NCBI GenBank assembly: GCA_003402375.1
Contig: QFXJ01000045.1
Span: 169,290 to 233,289 of the forward strand
Length of the DNA: 64,000 nucleotides
Reading direction: 5' to 3'
Origin: Candidatus Nitrotoga sp. CP45
Lineage (GTDB): Bacteria > Pseudomonadota > Gammaproteobacteria > Burkholderiales > Gallionellaceae
Shown: positions 13,723-39,788 of the stretch, one piece after another
Position numbering within the stretch: position 1 is the first letter of the stretch
How the letters are laid out: every line of letters starts with the position of its first letter
The notes under the pieces: generated by a model
Database searches by the model: none
What the model was told of the DNA's origin: nothing
What the model saw: only the letters and a program-made list of their open reading frames with translations
Position numbers and translations under genes: made by a program

Positions 13723-14091
13723 TGGTGGAGGCGGCGGGAATTGAACCCGCGTCCGCAAGCACTCTACAGGCAGTTCTACATACTTAGTCAAGTTATTTAA
13801 TTTTATCCGGTAGACGCCAACCGACAGGCTGCTACCGAACGAGTTACCTAAATTTAATGCCATACAAAGTAACCCTGCATGACACGATTCCGTGTAAATG
13901 ACCTCACTCATCGCGGCCTTGCGGCCTTGAGCCCCTCCACGGACAGCAGGGTGTGAGGTCTAACCGCTTACGCGGCTAAAGCGTACGTTTCGTCGTTTGC
14001 GACTATTGGTTTTCCAGCTGATTTACGAGGTTGCGGGTCCTCGGTATGCCCTACACTGCTTTGCAACCCACGTCGAAGCCAAGTCGCCCCC
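13723..14091 (-). ncRNA. ssrA: Transfer-messenger RNA (tmRNA), one-piece
   Basis: About 369 nt. The 5' end GGGGGCGACTTGGCTTCGAC and the 3' end GCGGGTTCAATTCCCGCCGC followed by CTCCACCA form the tRNA-like domain with an encoded CCA. The internal tag frame reads ANDETYALAA and a TAA stop. tmRNA with SmpB rescues stalled ribosomes and marks the nascent chain for proteolysis. The ORFs listed across this region (13678-13911 minus, 13997-14344 plus) are shadows of the RNA. smpB is not in the window. Confidence 0.98.
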
Positions 14092-35249: not shown

Positions 35250-35313
35250 AGGGTGGGCACGTCTTTGCCTCGTAGAGGTTCTCGCACCCGGAGGGTGTGC
35301 CCACGCGGGCAGC
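35250..35313. repeat. REP-like element, copy A
   Basis: GTGGGCACGTCTTTGCCTCG, then AGGTTCTCGCACCCGGAGGG and TGTGCCCACGCGGG. The outer GTGGGCAC and GTGCCCAC ends pair. The same sequence in opposite orientation lies at 39797-39850 beside the RAYT gene, and its first half recurs at 38756. These are the substrate-type repeats of REP-associated transposases. Confidence 0.85.
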
Positions 35314-35395
35314 GTTAATCATACCCCAGCACCGCACTTTCCACCGCAACAGCCCAATCATGCGTATATACCCTAGCACGCACATAAATTAAGTG
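35314..35395 (-). pseudogene. 3'-terminal remnant of a REP-associated transposase gene
   Basis: On the minus strand this reads YVRARVYTHDWAVAVESAVL then GYD and a stop, matching the last 23-25 residues of the intact RAYT at 39246 ([20 protein letters not shown]). The rest of the gene is gone. It lies in the same orientation as the intact copy, so the two form direct repeats around a 3.9 kb AT-rich segment. Confidence 0.85.
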
Positions 35396-38755: not shown

Positions 38756-38814
38756 GTGGGCACGTTTTTGCCTCACGGGCGCTGCGCGGTTTTATCGGGC
38801 AGCGCCCGTGAGAT
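38756..38814. repeat. REP-like element with 14-bp perfect inverted repeat
   Basis: GTGGGCACGTTTTTGCCT begins as in the other REP copies, then CTCACGGGCGCTGC and GCAGCGCCCGTGAG form a perfect 14-bp stem with a 13-nt loop. It lies between the convergent DUF1641 and sugE genes, where it could terminate both transcripts. Confidence 0.85.
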
Positions 38815-38820
38815 GATGGG

Positions 38821-39141
38821 TTAGGCCGGTGTTGCAAGCTTGAGGCCAACAATACCGGCGACGATTAGGCCAAGACTTAACAGCCGCATAGGATTGGCTG
38901 ACTCACCGAGCAAAACAATGCCCAGGATTGCGGTACCGACGGCACCTACACCTACCCATACAGCATATGCGGTGCCTATTGGCAGCGACTTCATGGCGAT
39001 ACCGAGCAGTCCGAAGCTAATGATCATTGAAAGTACGGTGCAGACCGTTGGCCAAATGCGGGTAAAGCCATCTGTGTATTTAAGCCCAACCGCCCAGCCG
39101 ATCTCAAACAAACCTGCCACAACAAGAATAAACCAATTCAT
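38821..39141 (-). CDS. sugE: SMR-family guanidinium/quaternary-ammonium exporter (SugE/Gdx)
   Basis: 106 aa from the Met at 39141; the ORF-track extension translates the riboswitch-like leader. Four membrane helices are evident. [20 protein letters not shown] carries the essential Glu of the SMR family (about residue 13) in the [12 protein letters not shown] context typical of Gdx rather than EmrE, followed by [20 protein letters not shown]. Gdx proteins export guanidinium in exchange for protons. A guanidine-II riboswitch-like leader directly upstream supports this. Confidence 0.93.
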
Positions 39142-39157
39142 AAATACCTCTCTGATA

Positions 39158-39205
39158 GGTGGGGCCGTCCCCAGTTGATGTATAGAGGTGAGGTCGTCCC
39201 CACTT
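39158..39205 (-). promoter_or_regulatory. Guanidine-II (mini-ykkC) riboswitch
   Basis: In the sugE direction the leader holds two short hairpins with ACGR loops: GTGGGG-ACGA-CCTCAC (39203-39188) and TGGGG-ACGG-CCCCA (39173-39160), separated by 14 nt. Two ACGR-capped stems in tandem are the definition of the mini-ykkC motif, which binds guanidinium and exposes the ribosome site. The sugE ribosome site GAGAGG lies directly after the second stem. Confidence 0.9.
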
Positions 39206-39245
39206 CTGAGATGCCTAACGTAAAATAGTGCCCACGCGGGCAGCA

Positions 39246-39788
39246 TTAATCATACCCCAGCACCGTATTTTCCATCGCAACAGCCCAGTCATGCGCATGC
39301 ACCCCATCACGCACATAGCGGTGAAATGTCGAATGAGGCCAATCAACCGCACGTTGACCATGCCCGTGTTTAACCGGGTTGAAATGAATGTAATCGAGAT
39401 GGCGGGCAAAATCATTTTCATCACGAATTGGGTGTTCCCAGAATCGCCGTTGCCAGATAGTCGATTCGCGATGTTTGAGTTTGGATGCAGTCACCCAGTC
39501 GGCACGACGATAATCTTCTCTGCAGGCCAAAGACACCGCTCGCTTGATTATCATCCAACGGGCGGAAAAATCGGCATCACCGTCAGGTAATGTCCACACG
39601 AAATGCAAATGGTCAGGCAACAACCCCCATACATCTATGACGAAAGGACGCGCCATGCGCACCGTTTGGATTGAGGCGCGCAATGCGTTACGAATCGCTT
39701 CGTCACATAGAATCGACTGCCGCCGGTAAGCGACCACCGTAAAGAAATATCTTGAGCCTGCAGCCATTGCGCGGCGATAACGTGACAT
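39246..39788 (-). CDS. REP-associated tyrosine transposase (RAYT, Y1 HUH family)
   Basis: 180 aa. Y1-transposase features: [20 protein letters not shown] near the N-terminus, the HUH metal site in [18 protein letters not shown] (about 57-74), and [20 protein letters not shown] then IHFNPVKHG with the candidate catalytic tyrosine. RAYTs process single-stranded REP sequences and are thought to spread them. REP-like elements lie on both sides (39227-39245 and 39797-39850), and a remnant of a second copy is at 35314. No internal stop; it may be active. Confidence 0.93.

Follow-up and report, generated by a model that had tools for sequence, protein, structure and literature searches.

The riboswitch and the exporter gene

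The window, a 64,000-nucleotide stretch of contig QFXJ01000045.1 from Candidatus Nitrotoga sp. CP45, carries on its minus strand a gdx/sugE gene preceded by a guanidine-II (mini-ykkC) riboswitch (Table 1). Read 5' to 3' on that strand, the locus runs from one half of a REP sequence through TATTTTAC, the heptamer GTTAGGC, ATCTCAGAA, hairpin P1, the linker CTCTATACATCAAC, hairpin P2 and CCTATCAGAGAGGTATTT to the gdx ATG, and a gene for a REP-associated tyrosine transposase (RAYT) lies upstream of the riboswitch.

Table 1. Features of the gdx locus, in window coordinates
Feature	Position	Strand	Basis
Left half of REP (GTGGGCACGTTTTTGCCTC), 18/19 identical to the copy at 35253	38756..38774	+	repeat comparison
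attC-like palindrome, 14-bp stem, R'' missing	38772..38812	-	attC matches
GCCTAAC overlapping the gdx stop, attC-like R'	38820..38826	-	sequence, attC alignment
gdx/sugE, predicted guanidinium exporter of the SMR family, 106 aa	38821..39141	-	homologues, NCBIfam
Shine-Dalgarno AGAGAGG, 5 nt before the ATG	39147..39153	-	sequence
Guanidine-II hairpin P2 (TGGGG-ACGG-CCCCA)	39160..39173	-	sequence and Rfam
Linker CTCTATACATCAAC between P1 and P2	39174..39187	-	sequence
ACCTCT (last two P1 bases and linker start), complementary to AGAGGT of the Shine-Dalgarno region	39184..39189	-	sequence
Guanidine-II hairpin P1 (GTGGGG-ACGA-CCTCAC)	39188..39203	-	sequence and Rfam
5' border heptamer GTTAGGC, integron core-site-like (GTTRRRY)	39213..39219	-	comparison of copies
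Right half of REP (GTGCCCACGCGG)	39228..39239	+	repeat comparison
REP-associated tyrosine transposase (RAYT)	39246..39788	-	NF047646, 174.5 bits, cut-off 80

The Rfam covariance model RF01068 (mini-ykkC) matches the minus strand at 39203-39160 with 40.5 bits, against a gathering threshold of 32 bits (E = 1.3e-4 for the window and 1.4e-6 for the genome), and a search of the whole 2.8-Mb genome returned this guanidine-II match as its only one. Both hairpins have an ACGR loop closed by GG/CC pairs, no stem pair is broken, and 18 nt separate the aptamer from the gdx start. The preliminary description had proposed this class from two hairpins with ACGA and ACGG loops directly before sugE/gdx, and on each of these points it agrees with what we find; its coordinates, 39158-39205, are right to 2 nt, and the strand, which it left unstated, is minus. 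It passed over the cassette and REP surroundings. Among the 80 gdx genes closest in sequence, 35 have paired ACGR hairpins at such spacing upstream, against 0 occurrences in a 1.23-Mb control taken from elsewhere in the same loci, a frequency far beyond chance. With its two GC-rich hairpins, short linker containing a putative anti-Shine-Dalgarno sequence and place directly before gdx, the aptamer is identical in kind to guanidine-II of the E. coli sugE type, from which it differs in lying within a candidate cassette relic beside REP and RAYT sequences. It is an unremarkable representative of an established riboswitch class, placed upstream of gdx, an identification that we regard as nearly certain.

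The gdx product aligns without gaps to Gdx-Clo, the nearest solved guanidinium exporter (E = 8.5e-30). In this alignment the residues E13, W16, S42, Y59 and W62, which we take to be ones that matter in Gdx-Clo, are identical, as is K101. The protein also passes the NCBIfam SugE equivalog (157.8 bits against a cut-off of 126) and scores far below the cut-offs of the Qac/EmrE models. These comparisons support its assignment as a Gdx-type guanidinium exporter, the family to which it had earlier been fitted, and no functional difference from Gdx-Clo (6wk5) or E. coli SugE is seen in the sequence. A mechanically called ORF of 141 aa (39246-38821) runs through the riboswitch. Because the alignment to Gdx-Clo begins at the ATG at 39141, where the homologues also begin, we take that ATG as the true gdx start and the start at 39246 as an artefact of an open leader; the preliminary description was thus right that the ORF track had set the start too early.

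Within the family, 25 of 150 genomes carry guanidine-II elements, and within the order 31 of 200 do; on our reading of the downstream sequence, these elements precede gdx or carboxylase-type genes. In sister genera (L010, L011, L013, L014 and similar loci) the gene that follows is carboxylase-like (MFDKVLIANRGAIACR...) and probably encodes a guanidine carboxylase; searches of the CP45 genome for urea/guanidine carboxylase gave partial matches only, none over the cut-off. Elsewhere in the window, an Rfam search places a tmRNA gene at 13723-14091 on the minus strand.

Probable control of gdx translation

In the published model of guanidine-II function, guanidinium induces loop-loop docking of P1 and P2, so that an anti-SD within the linker releases the Shine-Dalgarno (SD) sequence (PMC9094411, PMC7544219, PMC12186494). 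Applied to this leader, the model predicts that in the absence of ligand the SD (39153-39147) would be paired with the linker and the end of P1 (ACCUCU), or sequestered in a long hairpin that forms as an alternative. When the ACGA and ACGG loops bind two guanidinium ions, P1 and P2 would dock and free the SD for translation of Gdx, which would in turn export guanidinium in exchange for protons. Control of gdx translation by this textbook mechanism is likely, and the leader would be expected both to respond to the ligand and to switch its SD.

The complementarity between linker and SD covers 6 nt in the window and is also present in some of the nearest relatives. In the predicted ligand-free fold the SD is mostly paired (0.29 unpaired), and imposing P1 and P2 on the fold changes this little, to 0.39. 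Because the linker and SD of each of 50 leaders paired no better with each other than with swapped partners (354 of 400 swaps were as good), the SD-release step is one that we can only infer, and family-wide linker/SD covariation, for which swapped partners did equally well, was discarded. Against shuffled sequence, an advantage was seen for the first 11 linker nucleotides alone (9 of 300 shuffles were as good).

Two other views of the leader were considered. The SD might be sequestered by a 5' flank (GGCAUCUC, with GAGAGGU) that encloses both hairpins, rather than by the linker; this pairing is part of the MFE structure predicted for the window leader and for several close relatives, and reaches -12.0 kcal/mol in L058. 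It is unsupported over the 50 leaders, however, where 188 of 400 swaps did as well, and the transcript may not include the flank, so that we think this arrangement unlikely. We hold it just as doubtful that the RNA fold has been kept while control of gdx has been lost, the REP/RAYT junction having removed the native promoter and left the gene either silent or constitutively expressed by read-through. It is true that only 24 nt separate P1 from a REP half upstream of it, that no sigma-70-like promoter was found before the leader, where read-through from the RAYT side is a possible source of transcription, and that degraded guanidine-II leaders are known upstream of gdx in the same genus, both decaying and below the Rfam cut-off: one has a broken P2 stem (L137), and the other keeps only P2 (L138). 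By contrast, both loops, all stem pairs and the protein are intact in the window, which suggests continued selection, and, because control would act on the ribosome site, any promoter would do, including whichever one a cassette lands under.

Borders of the segment and the surrounding REP

Integron core sites follow the rule GTTRRRY. The GCCTAAC at the gdx stop is the exact complement of the GTTAGGC at the 5' border, and the sequence that follows the stop (CGGGCGCTGCCCGATAAAACCGCGCAGCGCC) shares 91% identity with the blaOXA-2 attC across 34 nt, a short match with E = 1e-3. The matching blaOXA-2 cassettes lie in class 1 integrons, with intI1 adjoining in R46, and plasmids of Thauera and Serpentinimonas carry similar sites. 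In the attC alignment R' is in register, whereas the R'' of the other sites reads ...CTTCAACGTTAAAC and the window has GGCAAAAACGTGCCCAC instead; an R'' (GTTRRRY) is absent from the 3' end, and the REP sequence GAGGCAAAAACGTGCCCAC stands in its place. The palindrome is unique in the genome, and its interpretation as an intrinsic terminator was rejected because no T-run follows it. A strict R'/R'' regular expression for attC gave no match, because the real R'' sites here deviate from it (GTTATG, GAACG). Of the marks of a gene cassette, the segment thus has the 5' core site and, after the gene, the R' and central palindrome of an attC; an attC R'' and an array with intI, or mobilisation by intI, were not found. 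Since R'' has been lost to REP sequence, the segment would be a relic and not an intact cassette.

Complete REPs in this genome have the form GTGGGCACGTYTTTGCCTC-GTAGAGGTTCTCGCACCCGGAGGGT-GTGCCCACGCGG, or a shorter one in which the middle is missing. Around gdx, the two halves stand in the correct order and orientation, with 453 bp that include the putative cassette replacing the 25-nt middle, which argues for a cassette relic inside the REP that flanks the RAYT. Either the cassette could have entered the REP, or a REP unit could have recombined into the attC. In its NF047646 transposase, its GTGGGCACG...GTGCCCACG REPs and its further copies in the genome, the unit resembles known RAYT/REP elements, and it differs from them in that the REP is split by the gdx segment. 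One complete REP lies at 35253-35309, and the sequence from there to 35346 resembles the remnant of a RAYT 3' end whose ORF is gone (for 35253-35346, 84 of 120 positions are identical to the RAYT end at 39228). Units of ~580 bp bounded by inverted GTGCCCACGCGG, at G000:C12:44604-46452 and C49:14142-14738, are probably other RAYT copies.

Origin of the riboswitch-gdx segment

The copies nearest to the window segment are in an Accumulibacter-labelled MAG (94% DNA identity), in Ferrigenium (85%) and in a Geobacter-labelled MAG (76%). Similarity to these three starts 8-20 nt before P1, at the border heptamer or only a few nt away from it, and stops at or just after the stop codon, and the flanks are unrelated; the MAG labels may be wrong, and four different contexts remain regardless. 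The heptamer at the 5' border is GTTAGGC in the window and in the Geobacter-labelled copy and GTTGGGC in Ferrigenium, while the Accumulibacter-labelled copy has TTTAGTTT, which does not fit GTTRRRY.

A more complete arrangement is found in G561:C19 (L181/L200), where the core site (GGGCGTTATGCC) is followed by guanidine-II (35.7 bits), gdx and an attC (GCCTAACAATTCGTTCAAGCC...GGTGTTATG). The Gdx of L181 shares 82% protein identity with that of the window, and its attC is up to 92% identical, over the full length, to the attC of aadB and to comparable sites, which occur in at least 5000 plasmid records. We read L181 as an intact relative that displays the ancestral cassette layout with a class-1-type attC. 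In L155, an attC-like site follows gdx and P1 has been lost. The attC sites of L181 and L155 were recognised by eye, and one was confirmed by a database match. Relatives of the window Gdx were not found on viral contigs; plasmids yielded sugE genes only 66-73% similar, and no copy of the window cassette.

We propose that riboswitch and gdx would have arrived together as an integron gene cassette composed of core site, riboswitch, gdx and attC, and that the window copy would be its relic, with an attC that lacks R'', set inside a REP beside a RAYT and with no integron around it. A cassette origin for riboswitch and gdx is probable from these sequence comparisons, and the account as a whole, a translational guanidine-II switch of gdx in a cassette relic, is one that we hold to be highly probable. 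That guanidine-II and gdx form a self-regulating integron gene cassette which circulates among Proteobacteria, and of which the window holds a REP-captured relic, is a wider proposal towards which we lean only slightly.

The locus could instead be an ordinary chromosomal guanidine-II/gdx pair, inherited vertically or acquired by homologous recombination, in which the heptamers and palindrome arose by chance or as a terminator and the REP and RAYT came later. Consistent with this, guanidine-II and gdx occur together in several genomes of the genus, REP sequences recur in the CP45 genome, and an integron integrase above the cut-off is absent from it. Most same-genus Gdx copies, however, share only 67-72% protein identity with that of the window (one shares 48%) and are less alike than the Accumulibacter- and Ferrigenium-labelled copies (96% and 88%), and a tree, with weak support, does not group the genus. 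Further, homology extends no farther than the gene borders on either side, the palindrome after the gene is similar to blaOXA-2 attCs and is without a T-run, and L181 has the layout of a cassette. A chromosomal origin therefore seems to us quite improbable, and we retain arrival as a cassette as the preferred reading.

Also in favour of a cassette origin, integron integrases well above the cut-off are encoded by a genome of the same genus (G061, 508 bits) and by Ferrigenium (G062, 473 bits). In G061 the integrase adjoins a Qac-like SMR gene (L211, G061:C86:13620-15168), and the sequence between them looks like a class 1 attI1. The second SMR gene of the CP45 genome (L217, G000:C51:69269-69583, minus strand) is Qac/EmrE-like and has just upstream an attC-like site that is 82% identical over 79 nt to an Acinetobacter plasmid site; the stop of a 228-aa ORF falls within the GCCTAAC of this site. 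The L217 protein has the motif SKVIATSALK where the Qac-like homologue of G061 has GEVIATSALK, a change of the essential Glu to Lys, and may be non-functional.

SMR/SugE genes on integrons are already known (PMC2716321, PMC7695847), and Gdx genes have been reported on plasmids and integrons (PMC7695847, PMC12186494). The window segment shares a core site, a single ORF and an attC with the stop in R' with SMR-gene cassettes (qac; SUG homologues, PMC2716321, PMC7695847); unlike them, it includes a riboswitch of a validated class, has lost R'' and lacks both array and integrase. Among the open-access papers searched, we found no description of guanidine-II inside an attC-bounded cassette, and what is new is probably the evidence for riboswitch and gene as an integron-cassette relic, the riboswitch itself being routine. 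A proposed aminoglycoside riboswitch, likewise an RNA sensor claimed inside integron cassettes, was rejected experimentally (PMC9410878), whereas the class of the RNA described here is well established, by biochemistry and by structures.

If the cassette reading is true, integrons would spread efflux genes together with the sensor of their ligand, and a bona fide metabolite riboswitch would be packaged in integron cassettes. This would bear on the dispute over whether riboswitches can travel in cassettes, the aminoglycoside example having been rejected (PMC9410878), and on the route by which Gdx genes reached plasmids and integrons (PMC7695847, PMC12186494), and it would explain the presence of gdx of the window's lineage in unrelated hosts and between unrelated flanks.
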